Shown here piece by piece: positions 1 through 15,586 of a DNA stretch of 64,000 bases. The notes beneath the pieces were generated by a model. It was not told the DNA's origin. It saw only the letters and a list, made by a program, of their open reading frames with translations, and searched no databases. The number at the start of each line of letters is the position of its first letter. Position 1 is the first letter of the stretch. The stretch comes from Saccharospirillum sp. (lineage in GTDB: Bacteria > Pseudomonadota > Gammaproteobacteria > Pseudomonadales > Natronospirillaceae): assembly GCA_018402545.1 (NCBI GenBank), contig JAGYIL010000001.1:1860001-1924000 (forward strand), in the 5' to 3' direction. A program made the position numbers and the translations under genes.

Positions 1-1521
1 GCGCGCGCACTGGGTGGTTTTGGCCAGCGGGTTATAACCGTTACCGTGGGCTTGCGAGTGGTAACCGGCCTGCAAAAAGACATGCTTAGCCACCTGGTTC
101 GGCTCGATTCGGGGTTCTTCGGCACCCATTCGCCCGGTGCGCTGATTGAACGGGTTCGTGGCGATACCCAGGCGCTAAAAAGCTTTGCCAGCACAGCGCT
201 GATCAACCTCGGGCGGGATTCCATTTCGCTGATTGCCCTGTTAACCGTCGCCATGCTGGTCGACTGGCGCTGGACGTTGTTTGCCCTCTTTGGCCTGCCG
301 TTGCTGTCGTTTCCCATTGCCTTGTTGCGCCGGCTTATTCTGAAGACTACGCGCAGTTCGCGTGAAGTGTCGTCGTTGCTGTCTATGCGTCTCGACGAAA
401 TTTTTCACGGCATTAACGCCATTAAACAGAACAACCTGGAAGCGCACGAAGACGGCCGTTTCCAGAAGGAAACCGAGCGGTTTTTCAAATACCAGCGACG
501 CTCTGAAATCGGCAAGGCGGCGATGCCGGCGATGATTGATCTGGTCGCTGGTTTTGGCTTTGTGGCGGTTGTGATTTATGGCGGGCATCAGATCATCGAG
601 GGTGAAAAAACCATTGGTGAATTCATGAGTTTTTTCACCGCCATGGCGCTGATTTTTGACCCGCTGCGCCGGCTGAGCAACATCAGCGGTGCCTTCCAGG
701 CGGCCAGTGCCAGCCTGGAGCGTATTTACAGCGTTCTGGATTTGAAAGCGAACATCGTTACACCACCGAACCCGGTGCCGGTGCCTGCGAATGTAGGCGA
801 GCTGGACATCGTGATGGATCACCTCAACTTTGGCTATGCCGATAAATCGGTGTTGCACGATCTGAGCTTAATCGCCCCGGCCGGGAAAATGACGGCCCTG
901 GTGGGTGCCTCGGGCGCGGGTAAAACCACGCTGTTCAACTTGTTAACCCGGCTGGTGGATCCGCAATCGGGCACTATTCGGCTGGGCGATGTGCCGATTA
1001 ACCAGTTGGATCTGATTGAACTGCGGCAGTTGTTCGCCGTGGTCAGTCAGGATTCAGCATTGTTCGATGAAAGCATCAAGCAGAACATTCTGCTGGGTAA
1101 ACTCGATGCCGATATGGCCAGCGTCGACAAGGCCGCCAAAGAGGCGCTGGTGGATGAGTACACCCGCCAGCTGGAAGCCGGGCTGGATACACTGGCTGGG
1201 CCGCGCGGTACGAACCTTTCGGGCGGTCAGCGCCAGCGCGTGGCCATTGCCCGGGCGCTGCTGCGCGATGCGCCAATTCTGCTGCTCGACGAAGCCACCT
1301 CAGCGCTCGATACCCGCACCGAAAAACTCATTCAGGAAACCCTCGAAGACCTTGCCAAGCGCAAAACCACCCTGGTGATCGCGCACCGGTTAAGCACGGT
1401 GATGAATGCCGATTTGATTCACGTGCTGGAAGAAGGGCGGGTGATTGAGAGTGGTACGCATGATGAGTTGCTGGCCAAACGTGGGGCGTATTTTAATTTG
1501 CATTCTACGTTTGAGGCGTGA
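1..1521 (+). CDS. ABC exporter, MsbA-like half-transporter (5' end missing)
   Basis: The reading frame is open from base 1, so the start lies outside the window. What remains is most of a transmembrane exporter domain followed by a complete nucleotide-binding domain. The latter shows Walker A GASGAGKTT, signature LSGGQRQR, Walker B ILLLDEATSALD and the switch histidine in IAHRLST. This is the architecture of fused homodimeric exporters such as MsbA, which flips lipid A-core across the inner membrane. Neighbouring lptFG and sugar genes fit a lipid or LPS role, but the substrate cannot be read from sequence and a multidrug-type exporter is the alternative. The stop codon lies 6 bp before the first repeat array. 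Confidence 0.88.
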   Translation, partial: ARALGGFGQRVITVTVGLRVVTGLQKDMLSHLVRLDSGFFGTHSPGALIERVRGDTQALKSFASTALINLGRDSISLIALLTVAMLVDWRWTLFALFGLPLLSFPIALLRRLILKTTRSSREVSSLLSMRLDEIFHGINAIKQNNLEAHEDGRFQKETERFFKYQRRSEIGKAAMPAMIDLVAGFGFVAVVIYGGHQIIEGEKTIGEFMSFFTAMALIFDPLRRLSNISGAFQAASASLERIYSVLDLKANIVTPPNPVPVPANVGELDIVMDHLNFGYADKSVLHDLSLIAPAGKMTALVGASGAGKTTLFNLLTRLVDPQSGTIRLGDVPINQLDLIELRQLFAVVSQDSALFDESIKQNILLGKLDADMASVDKAAKEALVDEYTRQLEAGLDTLAGPRGTNLSGGQRQRVAIARALLRDAPILLLDEATSALDTRTEKLIQETLEDLAKRKTTLVIAHRLSTVMNADLIHVLEEGRVIESGTHDELLAKRGAYFNLHSTFEA

Positions 1522-1527
1522 TCTTTC

Positions 1528-2662
1528 GTAGGAAGCCAGTCCTCTGGGTGACGGGGAGAATAACCAACCGGTGACGTTGGCCTTTTAGGAAGTGGTTCTA
1601 ATCACCGCTCAGGATGCTACCAGTCGCCCAGGGGACTGGCCTCCCACTGGTGGGATGGTTGTTTCATCTTTTGTGGGAAGCCAGTCCTCTGGGTGAAGGG
1701 GAGAGTAACCAACCGGTGACGTTGGCCTTTTAGGAAGTGGTTCTAATCACCGCTCAGGATGCTACCAGTCGCCCAGGGGACTGGCCTCCCACTGGTGGGA
1801 TGGTTGTTTCATCTTTTGTGGGAAGCCAGTCCTCTGGGTGAAGGGGAGAATAACCAACCGGTGACGTTGGCCTTTTAGGAAGTGGTTCTAATCACCGCTC
1901 AGGATGCGACCAGTCGCCCAGGGGACTGGCCTCCCACTGGTGGGATGGTTGTTTCATCTTTTGTGGGAAGCCAGTCCTCTGGGTGACGGGGAGAATAACC
2001 AACCGGTGACGTTGGCCTTTTGGGCAGTGGTTCTATTCACCGCTCAGGATGCGACCAGTCGCCCAGGGGACTGGCCTCCCACTGGTAGGATGGTTGTTTC
2101 ATCTTTTGTGGGAAGCCAGTCCTCTGGGTGACGGGGAGAATAACCAACCGGTGACGTTGGCCTTTTGGGCGGTGGTTCTATTCACCGCCCAGGATGCTAC
2201 CAGTCGCCCAGGGGACTGGCCTCCCACTGGTAGGATGGTTGTTTCATCTTTTGTGGGAAGCCAGTCCTCTGGGTGACGGGGAGAATAACCAACCGGTGAC
2301 GTTGGCCTTTTGGGCAGTGGTTCTAATCACCGCTCAGGATGCGACCAGTCGCCCAGGGGACTGGCCTCCCACTGGTAGGATGGTTGTTTCATCTTTTGTG
2401 GGAAGCCAGTCCTCTGGGTGACGGGGAGCATAACCAACCGGTGGCGTTGGCCTTTTGGGCGGTGGTTCTATTCACCGCCCAGGATGCTACCAGTCGCCCA
2501 GGGGACTGGCCTCCCACTGGTAGGATGGTTGTTTCATCTTTTGTGGGAAGCCAGTCCTCTGGGTGACAGGGAGCATAACCAACCGGTGACGTTGGCCTTT
2601 TGGGCGGTGGTTCTATTCACCGCTCAGGATGCGACCAGTCGCCCAGGGGACTGGCCTCCCAC
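1528..2662. repeat. REP/BIME array 1: eight 145-bp units
   Basis: Eight nearly identical units begin at 1528, 1673, 1818, 1963, 2108, 2253, 2398 and 2543. Each is a palindromic element of about 120 bp plus a 25 bp linker. The left end reads GTGGGAAGCCAGTCCTCTGG (GTAGG in the first copy). The right end is its imperfect inverted complement, finishing CTGGCCTCCCAC. Inside, CCAAC and GTTGG form one short hairpin and GGGCGGTG/CACCGCCC (in some copies) another. The array fills the space between two convergent genes, 6 bp after one stop codon and 25 bp from the other. Short open frames of 60-104 codons across it follow from the repeat and are not genes. Confidence 0.95.
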
Positions 2663-2687
2663 GGATGTGGCATGGTCAACATGGTGC

Positions 2688-3755
2688 CTACAACCTTGCT
2701 TTAACCAACCACACCGTCACCCCCAAAAATAGCAACGATGGCGCCAGTGCAGCCAGCACCGGGGTCAGCCCCATCACCATCAACAAACTGCCGCTTGTAT
2801 CCGTCACCAACTGAACCGCAATGGCCAGCGCCACGCCCTTGAAGGCAGCATCGCCCAGCGTTTTCTGCCTGAAACTGCCAAAAGAAAACACCAGCGCCAG
2901 AAACAACATGGCAATGTACTGCACCGGAAACCAGAGCCGGCTCCAGAAAGAGAGCTCCAGGCGGGGGTCGGGCAGGGCTTGTTCGAGTGAAAAGCGCACC
3001 TGAACCCACAGCTGTTGCAGGGTCAGCTCGCGCTCGCGCTGGCTAAGAATGCTGAGCAGGTCGGCGTTGAAGTTGGCCGGCTGCCAGTTCAGCGTTTCGA
3101 AGTTACTGTGCTGCACCGAGTCGTCAAAAAACGCTACCTGCTTAACATCGTTCAGCTTCCACCCCTGGTCGATGGGGCTGGCGGTGGGAGCGTAGGTGAC
3201 CATCGCCAGGTTATTGCGGTCGTCCATTTCGAATATGGTGAGGCCGGTGATGTCGCGGTCGGGCGAGACCAGATCGACGTTGATGACCCATTGATTGTCG
3301 CGGTACCACTGGCCACTCAGGGTTGGCAGGCTGCGGTCGAGTTTCATGGCCCGGGTCACTTCGGCTTGCAAGCGCAATTGCGGCGCAGCCCATTCGCCGA
3401 TGAAGTAAACAATGGGCAGCAGCATCAGCCCGGGCAGAATCAGCCGCACCACCAGGCCATAGGCACTGCGCGAGGCCAGCTGAATAACCACCAGTTCGCT
3501 GTTTTTGGCCATGCCGGCCACCGAGAGCAGGGTGCCGAGCAACACCATGGGGCCAATGAACTGGTAGACCTCGAGCGGCAGGCTGTAAAGCCGGTACAGG
3601 AAGGCATCGAAAGGGGTGTACGTCTCGCTGCCGCGCCGGCTGATTTCATCGGCCACACCCATCACCAGCAAGAGCCCGCCAATGGCCAGTACCACTATGG
3701 TGATAAACACGGCGGTACGCTTCAGAATGTAGCGGTTGAGTATCGACAAGCCCAT
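2688..3755 (-). CDS. lptG: LPS export permease LptG
   Basis: The 355-aa product is an inner-membrane subunit of the LptB2FG transporter, which extracts LPS from the inner membrane and passes it to the LptC-A-DE bridge. It has a YjgP/YjgQ-type layout: N-terminal membrane helices (MGLSILNRYILK onward), a periplasmic beta-jellyroll middle, and C-terminal helices. The start was set at the ATG that overlaps the upstream lptF stop (TGATG), which is typical translational coupling; a longer frame begins at 3812 inside lptF. The stop lies 25 bp from repeat array 1. Confidence 0.93.
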   Translation of the reverse strand: MGLSILNRYILKRTAVFITIVVLAIGGLLLVMGVADEISRRGSETYTPFDAFLYRLYSLPLEVYQFIGPMVLLGTLLSVAGMAKNSELVVIQLASRSAYGLVVRLILPGLMLLPIVYFIGEWAAPQLRLQAEVTRAMKLDRSLPTLSGQWYRDNQWVINVDLVSPDRDITGLTIFEMDDRNNLAMVTYAPTASPIDQGWKLNDVKQVAFFDDSVQHSNFETLNWQPANFNADLLSILSQRERELTLQQLWVQVRFSLEQALPDPRLELSFWSRLWFPVQYIAMLFLALVFSFGSFRQKTLGDAAFKGVALAIAVQLVTDTSGSLLMVMGLTPVLAALAPSLLFLGVTVWLVKARL

Positions 3756-4801
3756 CAGCCAGGCCTCCGTATCACTACAAGCCCCAGTGCCGCCAGCACA
3801 ATCAGCAACCACCAGGGGCTGGCAATGAGCGGAAGCTGGCCCTTTTCAACGGCGGTTTGGAGGGTATCCAGGGAAAACGTAAATACGATGTACAAGATGA
3901 TGCCAAACGCGATGGCCCCCACCTTGGCTTTGCGGGGTTTCACCCGGGTGAGGCTGACGGCCCACACAGCCAGTACCAGTATCATTCCGGCGGTTAGAGT
4001 GCGTTCTATCACTTCACTGCGGTTGGTCTGGCTGCCGGTTTGCCAAAGTACATCGGAGCCAATGGCTTCGCGCGGGCTGCTGCGCGAACCGGCTTCATCG
4101 GTAGGGATGTAAAGCGCGTAGCTCTGGTAGTTGATGCGTTCGGTCTCGTCCGGGTCGAGGCTGAAAACGGTTTGCCGGCCGGAAAACAGAGTTAAGTACT
4201 GGCGTTGGTCTTCCAGTTGAATGCGTGCCGAGGGCGCGGTGTTGACGGAGATGCGTTCACCATCAACCTGAGCCACAAAGAGGTTAAGCAGGGATTCCTG
4301 CGCCGGGTTGGAAGACCGGGCATACAAGGTGGCATCGCGCTGGTTCAGAGAGAAAAACTCACCGGGGGAAACAATGTCGGTCAGCGGGCGGTTCTGTTGG
4401 CTGAACAGGTAATCGGAAAGGCCCCGTTCGGCCATGGGCGTAACAAGGTGCGTAAAGGCCAGCATGATTACCATGGCCGGCAGGGCGGTGTAGGCCAGCA
4501 CTTTGGTCAGTATGCCGGTATCGGAGACGCCAATGGCATGCAACACGGTGCGTTCGGAGTCTTCGCTAAGCCGGTTCAGGGTGGTCAGAGCGGCGAGAAA
4601 ATACGCTGCTGGCAACAGTTCGGGCAGCAGGATGGGCAGTTGAAAGCCGATGATAGCGACAATCGCCCAGTCGGAATATTGGCCGGATACAACGCGGCCG
4701 AGCGTTTCACTCATTTCCCCGGCGATGAGCAACGCCATCAGAATGGCGGTGATCAGCGCGAAGGGCTTGATGATTTCTCGGCAGATATACCAGGTGAACA
4801 A
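3755..4801 (-). CDS. lptF: LPS export permease LptF
   Basis: The 348-aa partner of LptG belongs to the same YjgP/YjgQ permease family. It begins MFTWYICREIIKPFALITAI, with N-terminal transmembrane helices, a central periplasmic domain and C-terminal helices, and matches the usual length. It is the first gene of the lptFG pair and overlaps lptG by one base. In many gammaproteobacteria the region upstream of lptF holds a divergent pepA; here there is instead a short spacer of about 90 bp and then 1 kb of palindromic repeats, so its promoter must lie in the spacer or transcription must cross the array. Confidence 0.94.
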   Translation of the reverse strand: MFTWYICREIIKPFALITAILMALLIAGEMSETLGRVVSGQYSDWAIVAIIGFQLPILLPELLPAAYFLAALTTLNRLSEDSERTVLHAIGVSDTGILTKVLAYTALPAMVIMLAFTHLVTPMAERGLSDYLFSQQNRPLTDIVSPGEFFSLNQRDATLYARSSNPAQESLLNLFVAQVDGERISVNTAPSARIQLEDQRQYLTLFSGRQTVFSLDPDETERINYQSYALYIPTDEAGSRSSPREAIGSDVLWQTGSQTNRSEVIERTLTAGMILVLAVWAVSLTRVKPRKAKVGAIAFGIILYIVFTFSLDTLQTAVEKGQLPLIASPWWLLIVLAALGLVVIRRPG

Positions 4802-4891
4802 TGTTGAATCCGAATGTGACGAGCTGGCCCGCAGTATAGCGGGTTAGGGGGCGTCACCCAATATGCAACCCACCCAGAGGAGCGGTCTTTT

Positions 4892-5943
4892 GTGGGAAGC
4901 CAGTCCTCTGGGTGACGGGGAGAATAACTAACCGGTGACGTTGGCCTTTTGGGCAATGGCTCTATTCACCGGCGAGGATGCTTCCAGTCGCCCAGGGGAC
5001 TGGCCTCCCACTGGCATGATGGTTGTTTCATCTTTTGTGGGAAGCCAGTCCTCTGGGTGAAGGGGAGAATAACCAACCGGTGACGTTGGCCTTTTGGGCA
5101 GTGGTTCTATTCACCGCTCAGGATGCGACCAGTCGCCCAGGGGGCTGGCCTCCCACTGGTAGAATGGTTGTTTCATCTTTTGTGGGAAGCCAGTCCTCTG
5201 GGTGAAGGGGAGAATAACCAACCGGTGACGTTGGCCTTTTGGGCAGTGGTTCTATTCACCGCTCAGGATGCGACCAGTCGCCCAGGGGACTGGCCTCCCA
5301 CTGGTAGGATGGTTGTTTCATCTTTTGTGGGAAGCCAGTCCTCTGGGTGACGGGGAGAATAAGCAGCCGGTGATTTTAGCCTTTATAGGCAGTGGTTATA
5401 TTCACCGGCGAGGATGCTTCCAATCGCCCGGGGGACTGGCCTCCCACGACTGATCCTTTATTCATCCTTCCTGGAACGAATCGTCGCCCAGGGGGCTGGC
5501 CTCCCACTGGTAGGATGGTTGTTTCATCTTTTGTGGGAAGCCAGTCCTCTGGGTGACGGGGAGAATAACCAACCGGTGACGTTGGCCTTTTGGGCAGTGG
5601 TTCTATTCACCGCCCAGGATGCTACCAGTCGCCCAGGGGGCTGGCCTCCCACTGGTAGGATGGTTGTTTCATCTTTTGTGGGAAGCCAGTCCTCTGGGTG
5701 ACGGGGAGAATAACCAACCGGTGACGTTGGCCTTTTAGGCAGTGGTTCTAATCACCGCTCAGGATGCTACCAGTCGCCCAGGGGGCTGGCCTCCCACTGG
5801 TAGAATGGTTGTTTCATCTTTTGTGGGAAGCCAGTCCTCTGGGTGACGGGGAGAATAAGCAGCCGGTGATTTTAGCCTTTATAGGCAGTGGTTATATTCA
5901 CCGGCGAGGATGCTTCCAATCGCCCGGGGGACTGGCCTCCCAC
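4892..5943. repeat. REP/BIME array 2: seven units plus one fragment
   Basis: These units are of the same family as array 1, starting at 4892, 5037, 5182, 5327, 5533, 5678 and 5823. A right-end fragment at about 5484-5507 interrupts the 145 bp rhythm. The copies at 5327 and 5823 are a distinct subtype (AAGCAGCCGGTGATTTTAGC inside). They are followed by the same roughly 36 bp of flanking DNA, which at the second site is the 3' end of the wzz-like gene. The array lies upstream of lptF and directly downstream of wzz, both on the minus strand. Confidence 0.94.
5448..5483. repeat. Duplicated 3' end of the wzz-like gene inside array 2
   Basis: Bases 5327-5483 repeat bases 5823-5979 with no difference seen by eye. 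The last 36 bases are not part of the repeat family: they are the 3' flank, stop codon and last codons of the wzz-like gene. The copy then joins directly to the right half of another unit (TCGCCCAGGGGGCTGG). This records a segmental duplication in which the array captured adjacent coding DNA. Confidence 0.85.
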
Positions 5944-5953
5944 GACTGATCCT

Positions 5954-7102
5954 TTATTCATCCTTCCTGGAACGAATCGCCATGCGGATCAGTGCGATGA
6001 ACAGGGCGGCAAAACCAGCCAGTACCGTGGCGGCAATGGCGATCAGCGGCCGGTTCGGTTTTTCGGCATTGCTGGGGATGCGGGCAGCGGCGTCTTCATC
6101 GAGCAGGTTCACGTCGCTGAGGGCGAAGGTCTGGTTACTCAGGGCCCGAATCTCGCCCTGTAACTGGCTGGGCGTGGTGGTAATGACCATTTGGTTGCCG
6201 TTCAAGTCAAACACGGTTTCCTCGACGCCTTCGAGGAACAATTCGGCCGCGCCATCGGCCGAGAGGCTCTCCAACTGAGCAGTCAGAAAACGGCTGCCGT
6301 TGAGAAAGAGTTCATCGTTAGCCAGCTGGTTGATCATCTGCACCTGGCCATCGCCCAATACCAGGGCCTCCCAGCTGGTGGGTTCTTCCAGACCCAGGGA
6401 ATTGGCGATGCTCAGCGCTTGCTGCACCCGTCGGCGTTCGCGCGCCAGGCTGGCTTCGGCCCCGGCTAGCAGCTGGTCGTATTGGGACTGGGCGCTTTCA
6501 ATGCGAATCGCCTTGGTGGCGTTAATGTTACTAATGGCTTCGCGCAGTGTGCGTTCTTCGGCCAGAACCAGCAGCTGATCAATAAAGGCCTTGGCCCGGC
6601 GTGGCTCGCTGCTGAGCAAATTGACAGACAGGCTGTTCAGCGGGGTTTTCTCATCGGCTCCCAACTGGTAAAACTCGTAGCGCACCGGGCCGACGGAGAG
6701 AGCATCGGCAACGCTTTGAATCTGGGAAAAGGCTTCTTCTTCCGAGAGGGAATCGAGATCCTGATCACCGCCGAGGTCCGCTTGGCTGTAAGCCTGTTCA
6801 ATGAGGCTGAGTGATCGAAGGTTGAGCAGAAAGCGTTCAGACAGCTCATCGAGCGTGAGCGGGGCAATCTGTTGCGCCAGCAAAGGTTGTACCGCACCGC
6901 GAGAGGGTTGGTTGATGATCGCCTCAACCCGGTATTGTTTTGGCAACAACAGCGCAACGGCGACGCCAATGACCGCACCGAGTACCGTAATGCCGACAAT
7001 CAGTGGCCACTGGGCAATGAGCCCGCGCAGCAATTCACCCAGGTCGATGGTGTCGTCTTCGATATAGCGCGGTGCCGTGTGGTACGGGTCTGATGAACTC
7101 AT
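5954..7102 (-). CDS. Wzz-type polysaccharide chain-length determinant
   Basis: The 382-aa protein has a membrane helix near residues 30-55 (LIVGITVLGAVIGVAVALLL), a long periplasmic region rich in predicted helices, and a C-terminal helix (IAIAATVLAGFAALFIALI) ending in a short basic tail RSRKDE. This is the Wzz/FepE topology of inner-membrane proteins that set O-antigen or capsule chain length. The start at 7102 (MSSSDPYHTAP) has a GAGGGA Shine-Dalgarno sequence. The frame stays open upstream for another 63 codons, with an ATG at 7291 inside the miniature element, but that extension does not look like protein. Neighbouring cpsG and galE supply nucleotide-sugar precursors. Confidence 0.87.
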   Translation of the reverse strand: MSSSDPYHTAPRYIEDDTIDLGELLRGLIAQWPLIVGITVLGAVIGVAVALLLPKQYRVEAIINQPSRGAVQPLLAQQIAPLTLDELSERFLLNLRSLSLIEQAYSQADLGGDQDLDSLSEEEAFSQIQSVADALSVGPVRYEFYQLGADEKTPLNSLSVNLLSSEPRRAKAFIDQLLVLAEERTLREAISNINATKAIRIESAQSQYDQLLAGAEASLARERRRVQQALSIANSLGLEEPTSWEALVLGDGQVQMINQLANDELFLNGSRFLTAQLESLSADGAAELFLEGVEETVFDLNGNQMVITTTPSQLQGEIRALSNQTFALSDVNLLDEDAAARIPSNAEKPNRPLIAIAATVLAGFAALFIALIRMAIRSRKDE

Positions 7103-7215
7103 GTATTCCCTCTGTACTGCGTGGTAATGGCGACCGGCCGGGTGTATGGCCGGCCGCCGTTCTAACTGTTGGCTGGCATCAGACGACGGGCGCGGTATTG
7201 CCACACAAATGCCGA

Positions 7216-7481
7216 GGGAGCCTCTGAACAATTCCCCCAGGGCTCTGCGCGAGCTAAAACGTTCTGCCACAAGGCGCACTTCGCAGCGCAATGGCCGTAG
7301 CCCTTGTCAAGAAGTGCAACGCCGGGGCAGGACGTTTTAGCCGCGCCCTCCGGGGCTTTCCGAGGAACGTTGCCACCGCGTTGGACTCATTTGAAAGGTC
7401 TAGACATTCCGGCATGAGTCCGCCTTGTGGCAACGTCCCTCGGATAAGCCAGAGCCCAGGGGGAGTTGTTCAGAGGCTCCC
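7216..7481. mobile_element. Miniature inverted-repeat element, copy 1
   Basis: This 266 bp element has terminal inverted repeats starting GGGAGCCTCTGAACAATTCC. Between the termini are two long imperfect hairpins. One is bounded by GCTAAAACGTTCTGCC and GGGCAGGACGTTTTAGC, the other by CCGAGGAACGTTGCCAC and GTGGCAACGTCCCTCGG. It encodes no transposase. A near-identical copy of equal length, inverted, lies at 30892-31157. The flanks here (GA on the left, TA on the right) do not give a clean target duplication. It sits between wzz and cpsG, which are divergent. Confidence 0.9.
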
Positions 7482-7641
7482 TAACCGGCGCAGTATACGG
7501 GACGCCAGTGGCCGAGCCAAGCGGGCGGGAGCAGGCTGCCGGAGTAGCGAGCCCGGGGCTGGCAAAAACCGATTTTAAAAAAGACTGCAAGGAGGGCCTT
7601 TTGCAACCTATAATCGGGGCACATCTAAAACGGAGCACCTC

Positions 7642-9009
7642 ATGACTGAACTGACCTGTTTTGGCGCTTACGATATCCGCGGTGAGCTGGGTGTCGAGCT
7701 GAATACGGACATTGCCTACAGGATTGGACGGGCCTTTGCAGCCTACCTGAAACCCAAGACCGTGGTCGTCGGGGGCGATGTTCGCCAGACGTCTCCGGAG
7801 CTGAAGCAAGCTTTTGCCGACGGCGTGTTGGATTTCGGGGCCGATGTGATCGACATCGGGCTGTGCGGCACCGAAGAGGTGTACTTCGCCACCAAACACC
7901 TCAAGGCCGAGGGTGGGTGCATGGTCACAGCCAGCCACAACCCCATTAATTACAACGGCATGAAGATGGTGCGTGAGGAATCCAAACCGATTTCCCGCGA
8001 CACCGGCCTCGACGACATTCGTAAAATGGCCGAAACCGGTGAGTATGGCGAAAAAGCCGCCAAACGCGGCACGCTTACTGAACACGACAACAGCCAGGCC
8101 TACACCGAGCATTTAATCGGTTACCTGGATCTGACCGACCTGCGCCCGACCAAACTGGTCACCAATGCCGGCAACGGCGCCGCAGGCCCCTCGCTCGACC
8201 GTCTTGAAGCCGCCCTGAAAGCCAGTGGCGCGCCGATTGAGCTGATTAAAATCAACAACGACCCCGATGGCACCTTCCCGAACGGCATTCCCAACCCCTT
8301 GTTGCACGAACAACAGCCGGTGACCAGTAAAGCGGTTAAAGAGCACGGCGCCGACATGGGCATCGCCTGGGATGGCGATTTCGACCGCTGTTTCCTGTGG
8401 GATAACGAAGGCCAGTTCATTGAAGGCTATTACATTGTGGGTTTGCTGGCAGAGGCGTTTCTGGTCAAGCAGCCGGGCTCCAAGGTGGTGTATGACCCGC
8501 GATTGACGTGGAACACCGTCGAAATCGTTGAAGCCAACGGTGGCGAGGCCATCATGTGCAAATCGGGCCATGCCTTCATTAAAGAGAAAATGCGCAAGGA
8601 AGATGCCGTCTACGGCGGCGAGATGAGCGCCCACCACTACTTCCGCGATTTCGCCTATGCCGACTCGGGCATGATTCCCTGGTTGCTGGTGGTCGATTTG
8701 CTGAGCAAGAAGAAGACCTCGCTCAAGGCGCTGGTCAGTGAGCGAATGGCGAAGTTCCCGTCACCGGGCGAGATCAACAGTAAAGTCGCCGATGCCGATG
8801 AAACCATGACCCGGGTCTACGACGCCTACAAGGCCAACGCCATCGCCGAAGACCACATCGACGGCCTGTCGCTGGAGTTTACCGACTGGCGCTTTAACCT
8901 GCGCAAATCGAACACCGAACCGGTCATTCGCCTGAACGTCGAAACCCGGGGCGACAAATCACTGATGGAAGAGAAGACTCAGGAACTGCTGGCGCTGATC
9001 AGGCAGTAG
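7642..9009 (+). CDS. cpsG: Phosphomannomutase (CpsG/ManB type)
   Basis: The 455-aa protein interconverts mannose 6-phosphate and mannose 1-phosphate, feeding GDP-mannose and derived sugars for LPS and exopolysaccharide; some family members also act on glucose phosphates. The N-terminus ([14 protein letters not shown]) and length match CpsG/ManB. The phosphoserine loop TASHNP (Ser98), the metal loop WDGDFDR and the sugar-phosphate loop [14 protein letters not shown] are all present. A GGAG sequence precedes the ATG. The gene is followed by galE, so two sugar-precursor genes are paired, with a LacI-type palindrome between them. Confidence 0.93.
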
Positions 9010-9040
9010 GGTGCCTGCCCGGAGAACCAGAGTACCTTGT

Positions 9041-9056
9041 CTGAAAACGTTTTCAG
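9041..9056. promoter_or_regulatory. LacI/GalR-type operator palindrome upstream of galE
   Basis: CTGAAAACGTTTTCAG is a perfect 16-bp palindrome with the central CG typical of LacI-family operators. It lies 52 bp before the galE start and 31 bp after the cpsG stop. No regulator of this family is encoded in the window. There is no T-run, so a simple terminator is less likely. Confidence 0.5.
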
Positions 9057-9108
9057 TGGTAGGTTTTCCGGGATTACTTCTTCTTGAAACCTTGCAATGG
9101 AGTTTGCT

Positions 9109-10125
9109 ATGACTGTTTTGGTGACCGGCGGTGCCGGGTACATTGGCAGCCACACCTGCATAGAACTGATACAGGCCGGGCATACCGTGCTGGTGCTCGA
9201 TAACCTGGTAAACAGCTCGCCTGAATCGCTGCGCCGGGTTGAGGCCATCGTGCAGCAACCGGTCGATTTCGTGGAAGGCGACATTCGCGATACTGCCTTG
9301 CTCGACCGGGTGTTCAGCGAACACGACATCGACGCCGTGGTGCATTTTGCCGGCCTGAAAGCGGTGGGCGAGAGCACCGAGAAGCCACTCGACTACTACG
9401 ACAACAACGTTTACGGCACTCTGTGCCTGCTGCAGGTGATGAAACGCCACGGCTGCAAGAACCTGGTGTTCAGTTCATCGGCCACGGTCTATGGCGACCC
9501 GCATACGGTGCCCATTCAGGAACATTTTCCGCTCAGCGCGACCAACCCCTATGGCCGTTCCAAGCTGATGATCGAAGACATTCTGCGTGACCTCCATGCC
9601 TCTGATTCTGAATGGCAGGTGGCGCTGTTGCGTTATTTCAACCCGGTCGGGGCGCACGAAAGTGGCACCATCGGTGAAGACCCGAACGGCATTCCCAATA
9701 ACCTGATGCCCTTTATTACCCAGGTGGCCATTGGCAAGCGCGAGGCGTTGTCTGTTTTCGGGAGCGATTACAACACGCCCGACGGCACCGGCGTGCGCGA
9801 CTACATTCATGTGGTGGACCTGGCAAAAGGCCATGTCAAAGCCATCGAGAAGCTGAACAGCAACCCCGGCTGTGTTGCCTACAACCTGGGCACCGGTGTG
9901 GGCTACAGCGTGCTCGATATGGTGAAAGCACTGGAAAAAGCGTCGGGCTGCAAGGTGCCCTACAAGCTGGTCGACCGCCGCCCCGGCGATATCGCCTGCT
10001 GCTACGCCGACCCGGCCCATGCCGAACAGGAACTGGGCTGGCGCGCCGAGCGGGGCCTGGAAGACATGATGGCCGACTCCTGGCGCTGGCAAAGCCAGAA
10101 CCCTGAGGGTTACCAGCGTAAGTGA
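9109..10125 (+). CDS. galE: UDP-glucose 4-epimerase
   Basis: The 338-aa protein interconverts UDP-glucose and UDP-galactose, supplying galactose for LPS. It is a short-chain dehydrogenase-type epimerase with the NAD loop [10 protein letters not shown] at the N-terminus, the SSSATVYG serine region and the catalytic YGRSK (Tyr-x-x-x-Lys). The length equals E. coli GalE. The ATG at 9109 was chosen over one at 9097 because TGGAG sits just before it. The stop overlaps the next gene in a GTGA junction. Confidence 0.95.
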
Positions 10126-10889
10126 AGGACTACGTAAATTTCGACCCGCTGGCGGAGCGGTTTTCAAAAAACATCTATGGCAGCCTGAAAGGCCGCATTC
10201 GACAGACACTGCTGGAAACGCTGTATCCGAAGTATGTGCCCGGGTTACAGCAACCGGGCCTGAGCGTGCTTGATGCCGGTGGTGGCCTCGGGCAAATGAC
10301 GTTGTGGCTACTGGGCATGGGGCACCGGGTCGAGTATTTCGATGTAGCGGGTGATCTGGTGGCCCAGGTGCAGCAAGACGCGGCCCAATGGATTACCAGC
10401 AGCCAGTGCCAGGCAAGCCAGGCCTCGATATTTGATTTCGACACCGGCCCGAACCGGGATCTGGTGGTCGTGCACGCCGTGCTGGAATGGCTGGAGCAAC
10501 CCCGGGCCGCACTGGACAGAGCCATGGGCTGGGTAGCGCCGGGCGGCGTGATCGGTGTCATGGTTTACAATCGTCACATGCTCGAACTGCGCAACCTGAT
10601 GCGCGGCACGCTCGCTAAAGTCAAAACCGGCCAGCTGCAAGGCCTGGCCGGCGGACTGACGCCAATAACCCCCCTAAGCCCCGAACCCGTGCGCCAGCAA
10701 TTGGTGGATAACGGCTTCGAGATTCTCACCCAGGCAGGTATTCGAACCTTTACCGATTTAACCGAACCGACGGTGCTGAGCTGGTATTCCGATGAAGACA
10801 TCATCGAGATGGAGCAGCGCCTGTGTGAGCAGGCACCCTATCGGGACTTGGGGCGGTATGTGTTGTTGCTGGCGAGGAAGCCAAAGTAA
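10122..10889 (+). CDS. cmoM: tRNA 5-carboxymethoxyuridine methyltransferase CmoM
   Basis: The 255-aa class I SAM methyltransferase converts cmo5U34 to mcmo5U34 in wobble positions of tRNA. The N-terminus ([18 protein letters not shown]), the SAM loop [20 protein letters not shown] and the C-terminal [12 protein letters not shown] match the CmoM (former SmtA) family closely. It starts with GTG, overlapping the galE stop by 4 nt, so the two are translationally coupled despite unrelated functions. The first palindromic repeat starts 17 bp after the stop. Confidence 0.9.
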
Positions 10890-10906
10890 GCTGAGTTCTA
10901 AGTTTC

Positions 10907-11231
10907 GTAGGAAGCCAGTTCCTGGGCGACAGGGAGTACCCGGGCCTGTGATGATAACGCTAGCCAACAAGGTGACCTCTCCGGTGGTTATTTCCGCAGG
11001 TCACCCAGGGGACAGGCTACTCACGGCATAAAAAGCCCGAGCCCTGGTCACAAAGTGGGAGGCCAGTCCTCTGGGCGACGGGGAGTACCCGAGCCAGAGG
11101 TAATAGCGCTAGCCAACAAGGTGACCTCTCCGGTGGTTATTTCTACAGTTCACCCAGGGGACTGGCTTCTCACGGCATAACAAGCCCGAGCCCTGGTCGC
11201 GAAGTGGGAGGCCAGTCCTCTGGGCGACGGG
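10907..11231. repeat. REP/BIME array 3a: two units plus a left half
   Basis: A variant subfamily begins at 10907, 11055 and 11204 (period 148-149). Ends are GTAGG or GTGGGAGGCCAGTCCTCTGG and inverted, but the interior differs from arrays 1 and 2 (CTAGCCAACAAGGTGACCTC, GGTGGTTATTTC). Linkers carry GGCATAAAAAGCCCGAGCCC. The third copy stops after its left end, about 65 bp before the RAYT gene, so the transposase is preceded by a lone REP-like half. Confidence 0.88.
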
Positions 11232-11295
11232 TAATAAAAGCAACCAGTGACTTCAACATCAACCTAACCTGCGGGCCAATCGCACAGGAGACAGC

Positions 11296-11739
11296 ATGCT
11301 CAAGGAGAGCAGAGGTTACCAACAGCTCCGACGTAATCGTTTCTCATCACCGGGTAATTTTTACCACATAACCTGCGTAACCAATAACAGAAAGCCTTTA
11401 TTTAACAACTTGTCGAGTGCCAGAACATTCATCCATATCCTGGCAGATGATCATAACCACGGCACTGTTGATATCCTCGCATTCTGTGTCATGCCCGACC
11501 ACTTCCACTGGCTTTTTGAGCTAAAAAAGGGTGACCTTTCCCAGGTCGTAAAGCGCGTTAAATCGAAATTCTCTAAAACCTGTGACTACCCGGCCTGGCA
11601 AGATGGATTTCATGATCATTACCTGCGCTCTGATGAGGATCTGGTTAATGTTGCACGCTATATCGTGGCGAATCCGCTTCGGGCAAAGCTGGTGACAGAT
11701 GTTGGTGACTATCCCCATTGGTTTGCGAAGTGGTTATGA
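11296..11739 (+). CDS. REP-associated tyrosine transposase (RAYT, Y1_Tnp/IS200-like)
   Basis: The 147-aa protein is a single-domain HUH nuclease of the RAYT group. Visible motifs are YHITCVTNN near the N-terminus, the metal-binding pair His69-x-His71 in MPDHFHWL, the W-x2-GFHDHYLR stretch and Tyr122 in RYIVANPLRAKLV, the likely nucleophile. RAYTs cut single-stranded REP hairpins next to a GTAG-type tetranucleotide and are thought to spread REPs. Here the gene is bracketed by repeats of that form: a GTGG half-unit 65 bp upstream, a GTAG unit 21 bp downstream, and about 22 copies within 11 kb. A GGAG-type site precedes the ATG. All key residues are intact, so it may be active. Confidence 0.93.
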   Translation: MLKESRGYQQLRRNRFSSPGNFYHITCVTNNRKPLFNNLSSARTFIHILADDHNHGTVDILAFCVMPDHFHWLFELKKGDLSQVVKRVKSKFSKTCDYPAWQDGFHDHYLRSDEDLVNVARYIVANPLRAKLVTDVGDYPHWFAKWL

Positions 11740-11759
11740 GGCCCGGTTTTTAGTCTTTA

Positions 11760-12308
11760 GTAGGAAGCCAGTCCTCTGGGTGACGGGGAGAATAACGAAC
11801 CGGTGACTTTGGTTTCTTAGGCAGTGGTTATATGCACCAGCCAGGATGCTTCCAGTCGCCCAGGGGACTGGCCTCCCACTGGTAGGATGGTTGTTTCATC
11901 TTTTGTAGGAAGCCAGTCCTCTGGGTGACGGGGAGAATAACGAACCGGTGACTTTGGCTTCTTGGGCAGTGGTTATATGCACCAGCCAGGATGCTTCCAG
12001 TCGCCCAGGGGACTGGCCTCCCACGGGTGTGGTAGTTTTGTCTTTAGTAGGAAGCCAGTCCTCTGGGTGACGGGGAGAATAACGAACCGGTGACTTTGGC
12101 TTCTTAGGCAGTGGTTATATGCACCAGCCAGGATGCTTCCAGTCGCCCAGGGGACTGGCCTCCCACAAGTGTGGTGGTTCTGGCTTTTGTAGGAAGCCAG
12201 TCCTCTGGGTGACGGGGAGAATAACGAACCGGTGACTTTGGCTTCTTAGGCAATGGTTATATGCACCAGCCAGGATGCTTCCAGTCGCCCAGGGGACTGG
12301 CCTCCCAC
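11760..12308. repeat. REP/BIME array 3b: four units plus a fragment
   Basis: Units start at 11760, 11905, 12047 and 12189 (period 145, 142, 142), all with GTAGGAAGCCAGTCCTCTGG at the left and the inverted CTGGCCTCCCAC end at the right. The interior (ACGAACCGGTGACTTTGGC, TATGCACCAGCCAGGATGC) marks a third subfamily. A truncated left end (GTAGGAAGCCTGTGCCAG) follows at 12330-12347. The array starts 21 bp after the RAYT stop and ends near the 3' end of queE. Confidence 0.92.
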
Positions 12309-12374
12309 GGGTGTGGTTGTGTTGTCTTTGTAGGAAGCCTGTGCCAGGAGTTTGGTGGTTTATATAAAATGGGG

Positions 12375-13046
12375 TCAGGCTATGTTAACCACTTTATGCG
12401 ACTGCAGCGTCAGCCGCCACTCGGGGTGTGCCCTGCAGTAGGAGATAGCCGCCTGGGTGCTGGTTTCCCGCGCCGGGTGCAGGGTTTCGATGTCGAAGGG
12501 GTTTAGCGGGCTCAGGTAGCGAACCCCGGCTTCGATGTGCGCAAACCGTTCCGGCGGCGCTTCCGGCTGGGGGTAAACCAGCTTCAGTTCATCGCACCGT
12601 TCTATGATCACCTCACTGCGCCCTTTGGGGCTGATGCATACCCAATCGAGGTTAGCCGGCAGCGGGCGGGTGCCGTTCGATTCTACGGCACATTCGAAGC
12701 CGCGCTGGTGCAGGGCGTCGATCAGTGGTTCGGTCAGTTGCAGGGCCGGTTCGCCGCCGGTGAATACCACGTAGGGTTTTACCCGCTGGTCAGCAGAGGG
12801 TGTGGCGGTTGGCCAGAGCGCGGCTATGGCGTCGGCCAGGTCGGTTTCGGTGGCGAATTTGCCACCGCCTTCGCCATCGGTGCCAATGAAGTCGGTATCG
12901 CAGAAGGTGCAGATGCTGGTGGCGCGGTCTGATTCGCGGCCACTCCAGAGATTGCAGCCGGTAAAACGACAGAACACCGAGGCGCGGCCGGTGTGGGCGC
13001 CTTCGCCCTGCAAGGTGTAGAACATTTCTTTAACGGAGTAGGTCAC
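12375..13046 (-). CDS. queE: 7-carboxy-7-deazaguanine synthase
   Basis: This 223-aa radical-SAM enzyme converts 6-carboxytetrahydropterin to 7-carboxy-7-deazaguanine in queuosine synthesis. The cluster cysteines are Cys31, Cys46 and Cys49, a CX14CX2C arrangement also found in E. coli QueE instead of the usual CX3CX2C. The N-terminal FYTLQGEG, SAM-binding GGEPALQ and ESNGTRP are present. No queC or queD lies nearby. A GGAG-like site precedes the ATG at 13046. Confidence 0.92.
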   Translation of the reverse strand: MTYSVKEMFYTLQGEGAHTGRASVFCRFTGCNLWSGRESDRATSICTFCDTDFIGTDGEGGGKFATETDLADAIAALWPTATPSADQRVKPYVVFTGGEPALQLTEPLIDALHQRGFECAVESNGTRPLPANLDWVCISPKGRSEVIIERCDELKLVYPQPEAPPERFAHIEAGVRYLSPLNPFDIETLHPARETSTQAAISYCRAHPEWRLTLQSHKVVNIA

Positions 13047-13074
13047 GGGGTTTTGAATCTCGAAAATCGGGGTG

Positions 13075-13098
13075 AAAAAACGGCCTCGTCTGAGGCCG
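13075..13098 (-). terminator. Rho-independent terminator after the GGDEF/EAL gene
   Basis: Read on the minus strand, a perfect 7-bp GC stem (CGGCCTC/GAGGCCG, 4-nt loop) is followed by six T. It lies 13 bp beyond the stop of the c-di-GMP gene and ends the long minus-strand gene run that begins near 23.5 or 25.3 kb. Confidence 0.9.
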
Positions 13099-13111
13099 TG
13101 CTATCGGCAAA

Positions 13112-15586
13112 TTAAGGCGCGGCTGCGGCTGCCTGGGTGTTGTTGTCTTGCAGCAGGCGCATGAAATCGTCGGTATTCAGCGGGGCGGAGAACAAATAGC
13201 CCTGGTAGCGCAGGCAACCGATCGACTCCAGAAACGTCAGTTGTTCTTCGGTTTCAACGCCTTCGGCAATGGTTTTGAGGTTCAGGTGCTGAGCCATGGC
13301 GAGAATGGTTTCGACAATGGCGGCGTCGTTGTTGTCGGTGGTGAGATCGCGCACGAACGACTGGTCGACTTTAAGCACATCGAGCGGCAGCCGCTTCAGG
13401 TAGCTCAGGCTCGAATAGCCGGTGCCGAAATCGTCGATCGAAAACGAGACGCCGTACTGGCGAATTTCGTTCATCCGGATGATGGTTTCTTCCACTTCGT
13501 TGATCACCATGCCTTCGGTGATTTCGAGGTCGATGCAGCGGGCCGGAATGTCGTATTGCTTAATGGCCTGTTTCACCTGGGCAAAAAACTCCAGCTGGGA
13601 AAACTGCTGTGGGCTGACGTTGATGCCCAGTACCTGGTCTTCGTGCCAGAGGCCGGCGTCCATCCAGCGGCGCACGGTGGCGCAGGCTTCATCGAGCGCC
13701 CATTCGCCGACCTTGACGATCAGCCCCATGTTTTCCAGCACCGGAATGAACTCAACGGGAGATACCGTTCCCCGGGTCGGGTGCTGCCAGCGCATCAGCG
13801 CTTCGGCGCCGAGGATGCTGTTGTCGCGCACATCGACCTGAGGCTGGAAGGTTAGGTAGAACTCGCGGCGTTCTACCGCCAGGCGCAGGTCTTTTTCCAT
13901 GCTTAACCGGAAGGCGGTGGCTTCAGCCATGGCCTGTTCGAACTGGATGGCGTTGTCTTTGCCGTGGGCCTTGGCCTGGTACATGGCGGTGTCGGCATTG
14001 CGCAACAGATCGGAGGCGCTGGTGGAGCCCTCCGGATAGAGCGCGATGCCCAGGCTGGCGGTGACCGTCAGTTGCTGCCCGCCAATGAAGAACGGCTCGG
14101 CCAGGGCTTTGCGCAGACGTTCGGCGCGCTGGTAGGCCAGAATGCCGACTTCGCTTTTATCATTCCCGAGATCAGCCATGCAGATCACGAATTCATCGCC
14201 GCCGAGGCGCGATACAGTGTCTTCGCTGCGTACCGCATCCATTAACCGGGAGGCGGCTTCACGCAGCAGCGAATCGCCCGCACTGTGGCCCATTGAATCG
14301 TTGATGTTCTTGAAGTTATCGAGGTCGATAAACACCAGGGCGCCGAACTGGCCGGAACGCTCGGCACGACGCAGCGACTGGCCCAGACGGTCGAGGAAGA
14401 GGTGCCGGTTGGGCAGGTCGGTCAGCGGGTCGTGATAGGCCATGTGTTGCATGCGCGACTGGTTGCGCTTGCGCTCGGTAATGTCCACACCGACCGACAA
14501 TACGGCGGGCTCGCCGCGAAATTCGATGGGTAGAATGCGCAGCTCCAGCGCAGTCAGGGTGCCGTTGCTGTTCATCCAGTCCAGTTCCGGGATGAACAGG
14601 CTGTTCTGGTCGGTCATCACCTGCTCGTCGGCTTCCACAATCAGTTGGCGCGACTTTTCATCGTATTCATTGAGAATGCGGCTCTGGTGCTGGCCGGTCA
14701 GTTCTTCGACCGAGGTCTGAAAGGCGCGGGCAAAGGCTTCGTTCACCAGCGCCAGCTCGCCCTGGCGGTTTTTAACGTAAATGAGGTGCGGCAGGTTATC
14801 GATCAGCCGTCGCATGTTGGTGTAAGACTCTTCAACTTCGTGCTTGGCCAGAGTCTTGTCGGTGATCAGCCGTTCTGCGTTGCTCAGGTAATGGTTAATG
14901 TGAGCGGTCAGTTGGCCGAGTTCGTCACGTTCATGGCCACGGGGTGGGGTTAACCGCTGGCCGTTGGGGTTTTCGGCATCGATGCTGTCGAGTGAACTGG
15001 ACATCATGTTGATCGGTTTGGTGACCAGCCTGTAGAAGACGATAAGGAACAGCAGAATCAGGATGAAGTTTTTAACCACCCCGAGCAGAAAGGTCGAGAT
15101 CGCCCGGTCGGCAAAGCTCTGGTAGGCCAGTACCGTATCGATCTCCATGCGTAGCAGGCCATAGACATCGCTGCCCAGGGCATTGGTTTCAAGCCGTGTT
15201 TCCAGGGTTTGCACGGGCCGGGTAACGAAGAGTTCGTACCAGTGTTGCTGACGCTGGTCTTGCTCGGCAGAGCGTTCGGCCAGCGGCGAGCCGAGTTCGT
15301 CGATAATCGCAACGTAGGTGACAAAGTCGTACACGAACATGCCGTTGGCCACTTCGCTGGCCAGGTTGTAGTCGAGCGTATGCACGGCGCGTGAGGCAGC
15401 AAAGCGGGAGGCGTCCATCACCCGTTCAATGGAAGCGTCGAGTGAGTTCTGTTCTACGCGAAAGTCGTTATAGACCTGATAACCCGAGCTAACCAGACTG
15501 ACGAGCAGGGCCAAAATGACACCGCTGCGGGAAAGCCGAAACGACAGGCGATGTAAAAACTTGGGCTTGAAAACCTGTGAAGACAT
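13112..15586 (-). CDS. Membrane-bound GGDEF/EAL protein with PAS domain
   Basis: The predicted 824-aa protein has an N-terminal membrane helix, a periplasmic region of about 130 residues, a second helix (FILILLFLIVFYRLV), a HAMP-like linker, a PAS domain (NLPHLIYVKNRQGELALVNEAF), a GGDEF domain and an EAL domain. The GGDEF active site RLGGDEF and the EAL motif AEALMRW are both intact, so it could make or degrade cyclic di-GMP. The start at 15586 (MSSQVF) is preferred because a membrane helix follows at once; an ATG at 15625 would add 13 residues. It lies 60 bp downstream of the lipid/photolyase operon and may be its last gene. Confidence 0.9.
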   Translation of the reverse strand: MSSQVFKPKFLHRLSFRLSRSGVILALLVSLVSSGYQVYNDFRVEQNSLDASIERVMDASRFAASRAVHTLDYNLASEVANGMFVYDFVTYVAIIDELGSPLAERSAEQDQRQQHWYELFVTRPVQTLETRLETNALGSDVYGLLRMEIDTVLAYQSFADRAISTFLLGVVKNFILILLFLIVFYRLVTKPINMMSSSLDSIDAENPNGQRLTPPRGHERDELGQLTAHINHYLSNAERLITDKTLAKHEVEESYTNMRRLIDNLPHLIYVKNRQGELALVNEAFARAFQTSVEELTGQHQSRILNEYDEKSRQLIVEADEQVMTDQNSLFIPELDWMNSNGTLTALELRILPIEFRGEPAVLSVGVDITERKRNQSRMQHMAYHDPLTDLPNRHLFLDRLGQSLRRAERSGQFGALVFIDLDNFKNINDSMGHSAGDSLLREAASRLMDAVRSEDTVSRLGGDEFVICMADLGNDKSEVGILAYQRAERLRKALAEPFFIGGQQLTVTASLGIALYPEGSTSASDLLRNADTAMYQAKAHGKDNAIQFEQAMAEATAFRLSMEKDLRLAVERREFYLTFQPQVDVRDNSILGAEALMRWQHPTRGTVSPVEFIPVLENMGLIVKVGEWALDEACATVRRWMDAGLWHEDQVLGINVSPQQFSQLEFFAQVKQAIKQYDIPARCIDLEITEGMVINEVEETIIRMNEIRQYGVSFSIDDFGTGYSSLSYLKRLPLDVLKVDQSFVRDLTTDNNDAAIVETILAMAQHLNLKTIAEGVETEEQLTFLESIGCLRYQGYLFSAPLNTDDFMRLLQDNNTQAAAAAP

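Follow-up and report, generated by a model that had tools for sequence, protein, structure and literature searches.

A RAYT transposase gene and the tandem arrays of GTRG-tagged palindromes around it, found in a 64-kb stretch of DNA (hereafter the window), very probably form a REPIN/RAYT (REPtron) system in which the repeats serve as non-autonomous substrates of the RAYT. Our reading is that the repeats multiply near the gene and that the arrays turn over quickly. The unexpected part is a one-way difference in the tag of one repeat arm, arm B, at sites that this genome (G000) shares with a close sister species (G001). The gene and the repeats occupy the following positions in the window.

1528–2662, plus strand: array A, eight REPIN units at 145 bp, the first arm A tagged GTAG and the remaining seven GTGG.
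4892–5943, plus strand: array B, seven full REPIN units and one fragment (a lone arm B at 5507), with identical end-type units at 5327 and 5823.
10907–11024, plus strand: degenerate REPIN unit upstream of the RAYT gene, starting GTAG and with a far arm tagged GTGA.
11055–11173, plus strand: REPIN unit of the 149-bp-spaced subtype upstream of the RAYT gene, with tags GTGG and GTGA.
11204–11228, plus strand: half-unit, a single REP tagged GTGG without a clear partner, 67 bp before the RAYT start codon.
11296–11739, plus strand: RAYT/TnpA-REP gene, 147 aa, with HUH motif H69-F-H71 and catalytic Tyr122.
11760–11879, 11905–12024, 12047–12166 and 12189–12308, plus strand: array C, four REPIN units of 120 bp, arm A tagged GTAG and arm B GTGG.
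12330–12345, plus strand: truncated next REP that closes array C, as read from the sequence.

The RAYT reading frame has no internal stops and places the HFH motif at residues 69–71 and Tyr122 within YIVANP, which bears out the intact HUH/Tyr enzyme described in an earlier interpretation of this DNA made from its letters alone (the sequence-only reading). The HUH motif is thus accompanied by one catalytic tyrosine in the Y---NP context (Y122-IVA-NP) given as a mark of RAYT/TnpA-REP proteins (PMC6006769, in part). Across the aligned RAYT rows the catalytic positions are occupied by H in 91/94, H in 94/94, Y in 92/94, N in 93/94 and P in 93/94. The protein belongs to NCBIfam family NF047646 (REP_Tyr_transpos; 139 bits, cut-off 80), while its score against the IS200/IS605 model NF033573 is below the cut-off (26.6 bits, cut-off 55); the broader Pfam family Y1_Tnp does match (46.7, cut-off 23). 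Its closest solved structure, and the sole good match among solved structures, is TnpArep 4er8 (E 3e-9). A search of the genome with the RAYT protein returned one gene copy only. As judged from its sequence, the gene product is a TnpA-REP, a predicted HUH/Tyr single-strand nuclease akin to the RAYTs of Pseudomonas. A promoter and terminator scan of 10880–12400 returned one of each, a count no higher than in shuffled sequence.

REP arms, called with 5 or fewer substitutions over 24 nt, number 43 in the window (21 plus, 22 minus), and every one lies within 1528–12308. They form 22 units in ~11 kb, with eight at 1528–2662, seven full units and one fragment at 4892–5943, three at 10907–11228 (one degenerate, one full and one half unit) and four at 11760–12308, a count that agrees with the ~22 palindromes within 11 kb noted in the sequence-only reading. 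Each REPIN unit consists of two inverted GTRG-tagged REPs, arm A (GTRGGAAGCCAGTCCTCTGGGTGAC) and arm B (GTRGGAGGCCAGTCCCCTGGGCGAC), and measures ~120 bp from tag to tag; the tag-to-tag coordinate difference, 118–120 in most pairs of the 145-bp type, is that of a REPIN/BIME. The tandem spacing is 142–149 bp, and a spacer of 22–25 bp comes after the unit at most array junctions. Two units were folded, and each is predicted to form one long single-stranded hairpin (z −3.5 for the second unit of array C; z −8.7 for the fifth unit of array A). Rfam gave zero matches at the gathering threshold for positions 1–13500 of the window. Inverted REPs flank the gene, with REP(+) before it at 11204 and REP(−) after it at 11879; the REPs nearest to it on each side (11204 and 11760) are both plus, i.e. 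in the same orientation and not inverted. The gene is bracketed, as had been stated, by a half-unit that starts GTGG (11204) and a first full downstream unit that starts GTAG (11760), and two details of the interval are corrected here: the opening unit at 10907 starts GTAG and is degenerate, and, of the five tags that precede the gene, two are GTGA.

The 17-nt REP core CCAGTCYYCTGGGYGAC occurs 112 times in G000 at up to 1 mismatch (52+60), and the control, the same pattern read backwards, occurs 0+0 times, so the core exceeds chance. Relaxing the limit to 3 mismatches brings up matches to the control as well (100+109 for the core vs 38+41 for the control). The catalogue of G000, which leaves aside site C1:158 kb, holds 113 arms over 29 sites. 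Counting the repeat genome-wide and in sister genomes, a check put forward in the sequence-only reading, gave 112 cores in G000, 28 in G001 and zero in the remaining four genus members examined (G002–G005), all at up to 1 mismatch; the contrast between a genome with the RAYT (112) and one in which none was found (28) is a single pair, and G001 is a 150-contig draft.

The pairing of the gene with the repeats is observed by comparison with related RAYTs. The RAYT protein was searched in 57 genomes (G000 and 56 relatives), with matches at E 1e-5 or better in 24. Beside the nearest of these RAYTs, in G010 (57% identity), and beside that of G011 (45%), lie REPs in which one arm, GTAGGAGGCCAGCC-CTGGCCGA, is close to arm B of G000 and the other arm has a different stem, and nearly the same GGCCAG hairpin is common to the REPs of all three genomes. 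Exact copies of the GTAGGAGGCCAGCC-CTGGCCGA pattern number 63 in G010 and 24 in G011, against 0 in the controls. Since related RAYTs have REPs with nearly the same hairpin alongside, the pairing is well supported; the proposal of a RAYT embedded in its cognate REP/BIME family holds on the strength of this near-identical stem, the nesting of the gene among the repeats and its single copy.

A repeated GTRG hairpin was called within 500 bp of 75 of 93 RAYT relatives (48 mostly GTGG, 27 mostly GTAG) and was absent at 18, by a detector run without a random control. This set combines 80 loci from one homologue collection with 13 of the 29 loci from the relatives' genomes, and 14 of the 75 tagged loci have mixed tags and were assigned by majority. 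On the RAYT tree, which is built from few columns and in which two of 94 rows (L120 and L121) look badly translated, the tag label changes 20 times compared with 22.2–22.4 after shuffling, a value as low being reached in 74 and 87 of 500 shuffles. No RAYT residue predicting the tag was found, the best of 300 tests giving P 2.5e-4 before correction. Across these relatives the tag position looks labile. G004, which belongs to the same genus as G000, encodes a distinct RAYT (47% identity) at C7:239373–239801; this one has its own REP family, GTAGGAGCGCACGCCGTGCGCGA, with 25 copies at 1.2–20 kb from that gene and 0 at 20–40 kb.

REP sites are crowded near the gene in G000. Ten of the 29 other sites lie within 90 kb of the RAYT locus, where 1.2 are expected (P 2e-7), and 4 of 21 do so after sites under 10 kb apart are merged (P 0.01), the site list being hand-compiled with a lone 1-mismatch match at C1:780.8 kb left out. 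The crowded sites are all on the low-coordinate side of the RAYT, and among the matches listed there are none for 955 kb on the other side. Crowding was clear in five of 14 RAYT regions examined (G004, G010, G011, G057 and G062) and weak or absent in six (G059, G060, G063, G065, G069 and G073), and three (G064, G066 and G067) contained no usable REP. Of the 39 Zobellella (G058) REPs among the matches listed, 16 are no more than 20 kb away from the RAYT. Local crowding was rejected as a novelty, since it has been reported for three marine gammaproteobacteria and Thauera (PMC2817692, in part).

The close sister species G001, whose queE product is 92% identical to that of G000, differs in both gene and arrays. 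A RAYT of this clade was not found in G001, where the best match, to a 243-aa frame, has 30% identity along 131 residues; beyond this 30% relative, the search for a remnant returned two matches at E 1.7 and 4.5. At the orthologous place of the RAYT locus, the aligned ends of a methyltransferase gene and queE are ~108 bp apart in G001 and enclose no REP, compared with 1.49 kb in G000. The places of arrays A and B have ~176 and 5 bp between aligned ends, with no REP core there among the matches listed. The absence of arrays from these orthologous places, together with the homogeneous tandem units in G000, supports the recent amplification suggested in the sequence-only reading. That reading had also held that genomes with the repeats and without a RAYT of this clade would speak against the pairing, and at face value G001, with its 28 cores, is such a genome. 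The G001 assembly comprises 150 contigs, one of which ends 188 bp after a REP start, and one of its arrays contains a run of N; with such breaks at the repeats, an array-enclosed RAYT could be missing from the assembly. Loss of the RAYT is a published model (PMC3686654, in part), and G001 fits it. We attribute the G001 repeats to RAYT loss or to a gap in the draft, either of which explains them better than a false pairing does. The methyltransferase–queE gap of G001 (L176 4092–4201) contains a CCCTCTCCC/GGGAGAGGG-type palindrome unlike the REPs of G000. In G004 and G005 a long ORF, which looks aconitase-like, stands between the same two genes. At the G001 counterpart of the 1804.8-kb site (L190 3394–3645), an unrelated ACGTC-rich repeat lies between the aligned flanks, where G000 has a single REPIN.

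Left-arm tags are mixed in five G000 arrays: array A, those at 1398 kb, 1784 kb and 1796 kb, and also the degenerate trio that lies before the RAYT gene, in which two of the three left arms are B-like. The outermost left arm is GTAG (once ATAG) in all five, with a chance of ~0.001, or 0.003 without the trio, figures that are optimistic because the test was drawn up after the pattern had been seen and the arrays are related. Array B, uniformly GTGG on these arms, and array C, uniformly GTAG, lack the edge pattern. A CT dinucleotide is positioned before arm A, at −5/−4 of the tag: of the distinct 12-nt upstream flanks, 16 of 24 in G000 and 4 of 8 in G001 have it there, against 0 to 3 at other offsets; arm A flanks hand-sorted as array edges or single sites carry it in 8 of 12 cases. 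At arm B flanks it is found in 3 of 44 in G000 and 0 of 17 in G001. The positioned CT resembles the CT adjoining the REP that is the cleavage dinucleotide of E. coli TnpA-REP (PMC8266576, in part), and is consistent with arm A as the candidate cut end. A guide code in which GTAG is cut at CT and GTGG at CC (after PMC8266576, in part) was considered and rejected: in both species CC is found close to arm B under either tag, and CT persists at the GTGG-tagged inner A arms.

In the mechanism that we propose, the RAYT would bind the tagged hairpin on exposed single-stranded DNA, cut at the CT 4–5 nt before the arm A tag and join the freed end to another such place, giving new copies preferentially near the gene. 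Once two units are adjacent, 142–145-bp units could be gained or lost either by unequal recombination or by repeated rounds of excision and insertion at the regularly placed CTs. We infer the binding, cutting and strand transfer, as well as the cause of array growth, and the RAYT may be the driver of that growth or of the tag change described below. There is an even chance that the tandem arrays instead arose by ordinary duplication, through homologous recombination or replication slippage, and that the RAYT only seeded the first unit, which would leave the pairing itself unaffected. In-place multiplication of this kind is expected to produce what the mixed arrays display, an outermost arm whose tag is unlike most inner ones; moreover, a block ending in an identical unit is repeated in array B, and the array at 147 kb has a different number of units in the two species at the same site. 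However, nearly the same 25-bp spacer, TGGTAGGATGGTTGTTTCATCTTTT (few changes), joins units at 1784 kb and at the first junction of array C as well as in arrays A and B; unit and spacer therefore seem to have moved together between loci, although conversion between arrays could do likewise. Recombination alone also gives no account of the CT placed before arm A at the edges of different sites.

The location of arrays A and C between convergent genes and of array B in an intergenic region, by the ORFs listed, would suit repeats that are retained because they serve the host, such as in transcription termination or as gyrase sites, with the RAYT as a passenger, and such roles are known for REPs and BIMEs of other bacteria (PMC2817692, in part). 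A host role of this sort nevertheless seems quite unlikely here, given that the orthologous places in G001 have neither array A nor array B nor the RAYT locus (about 176, 5 and 108 bp between aligned ends) and that a single genus includes genomes with 112, 28 and 0 REP cores. It is highly improbable that the gene and the repeats are unrelated neighbours: G001 has repeats and its gene was not found, but the REP stem is common to the nearest related RAYT loci, the repeats crowd near the gene, and tagged hairpins lie beside 75 of the 93 relatives.

The tags of the two species differ. B arms in G000 carry 51 GTGG, 17 GTAG and 1 other tag (n = 69), while those in G001 carry 0 GTGG, 17 GTAG and 2 others (n = 19); for A arms the numbers are 24 GTGG, 16 GTAG and 4 others in G000 (n = 44) and 1 GTGG and 8 GTAG in G001 (n = 9), the G001 counts being made without three of its 28 cores (C11, C20 and C86). 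Sites with one or more GTGG B arms make up 20 of 28 in G000 vs 0 of 16 in G001 (Fisher P 3e-6). Seven shared sites were resolved, and at four of them (147 kb, 1488 kb, C6:127 kb and 1784 kb) the B arm is GTGG in G000 and GTAG in G001. Both species have GTAG at 766 kb and 1441 kb, where the G001 arm at 1441 kb is A-like; at 1803 kb the G001 tag is GCAG and the A arm has the reverse trend (GTAG in G000, GTGG in G001). These comparisons are site by site, as array units do not correspond strictly one to one. The REP sites at 1849–1853 kb, a neighbourhood only partly syntenic with contigs C56 and C68 of G001, are outside the seven. In the aligned B arms of the four differing sites the 20-nt core is identical save one base in one of the two arms at 1784 kb. 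The shared arrays have changed independently: the one at 147 kb has five units in G000 vs two in G001, and the spacers at 1784 kb differ between the species.

Because four of the seven sites differ one way with the hairpin core almost unchanged, and the outermost arm of mixed arrays is GTAG with GTGG on most of the inner ones, we tentatively raise the possibility, itself doubtful, that the tag was switched in place after the sister species split. Inherited copies would then have been rewritten by RAYT-catalysed strand transfer or by inter-repeat conversion, not merely outnumbered, and inner GTGG tags might stabilise arrays against excision. No outgroup carrying these repeats was found among G002–G005 (zero cores), and the change could run in either direction between GTAG and GTGG. 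A simple alternative would be drift at tag position 3, with either purine tolerated there, which would fit the 20 tag changes on the RAYT tree; plain drift sits less easily with the four B-arm sites that differ by a purine, all of which go the same way, and with two species' populations that are each almost uniform, one in the opposite sense to the other. The available parts of PMC2817692, PMC3686654, PMC8266576, PMC3733652, PMC3116915 and PMC6006769 and the literature listings yielded no in-place tag switch, and the statement extends to those texts.

The locus has clear counterparts among known systems. In Pseudomonas, Stenotrophomonas and marine gammaproteobacteria, as here, an HUH/Tyr RAYT lies among GT(A/G)G REPs; BIMEs adjoin the gene in one third of cases, as at this locus, REPs are crowded near the gene in some genomes, and REPs remain where the RAYT is missing (PMC2817692 and PMC3686654, both in part). 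In the orthoswitch model (Nunvar 2013, PMC3686654, in part) old copies stay and decay, whereas here the tag differs between sisters even at shared sites. The REPINs of P. fluorescens SBW25 (PMC3116915, in part) are likewise inverted REP doublets that form tandem clusters including flanking sequence; the largest such cluster has 4 units, compared with up to 8 here, and SBW25 also has single-REP tandem arrays of up to 12. Unlike the SBW25 REPINs, the units described here have two dissimilar arms and a placed CT on arm A only. The TnpA-REP enzymes of E. coli (4er8), S. maltophilia and Marinomonas act on a tag-plus-hairpin substrate with HUH and Tyr chemistry (PMC8266576, in part), a likeness that for the present protein is drawn from its sequence. 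G dominates tag position 3 here, and with the Marinomonas enzyme G gives poorer cutting at CA and allows cutting at CC (PMC8266576, in part). With the present system, the usual Pseudomonas and enteric models are joined by a well-resolved REPIN/RAYT pair from outside those groups. The contrast between the sisters, with the gene and arrays in G000 and, in G001, only a few copies, a different tag and no sign of the gene in the search, makes it possible to test whether array growth needs the RAYT and how a repeat family changes its recognition tag.

Two further repeats were observed in the course of the analysis. A near-match to the REP core, CTAGTCTCCTGGGCGAA (2–3 mismatches), recurs in G000 at C1:139465, 2441048, 57192, 494783 and 1039530, among the matches listed, and may represent another, related repeat family. 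A 269-bp element at 7215–7483 of the window, separate from the REPs, carries inner inverted repeats between 33-nt inverted ends that are 94% complementary and looks like a miniature inverted-repeat element; eight further near-full copies, with 80–96% identity, are present in G001.
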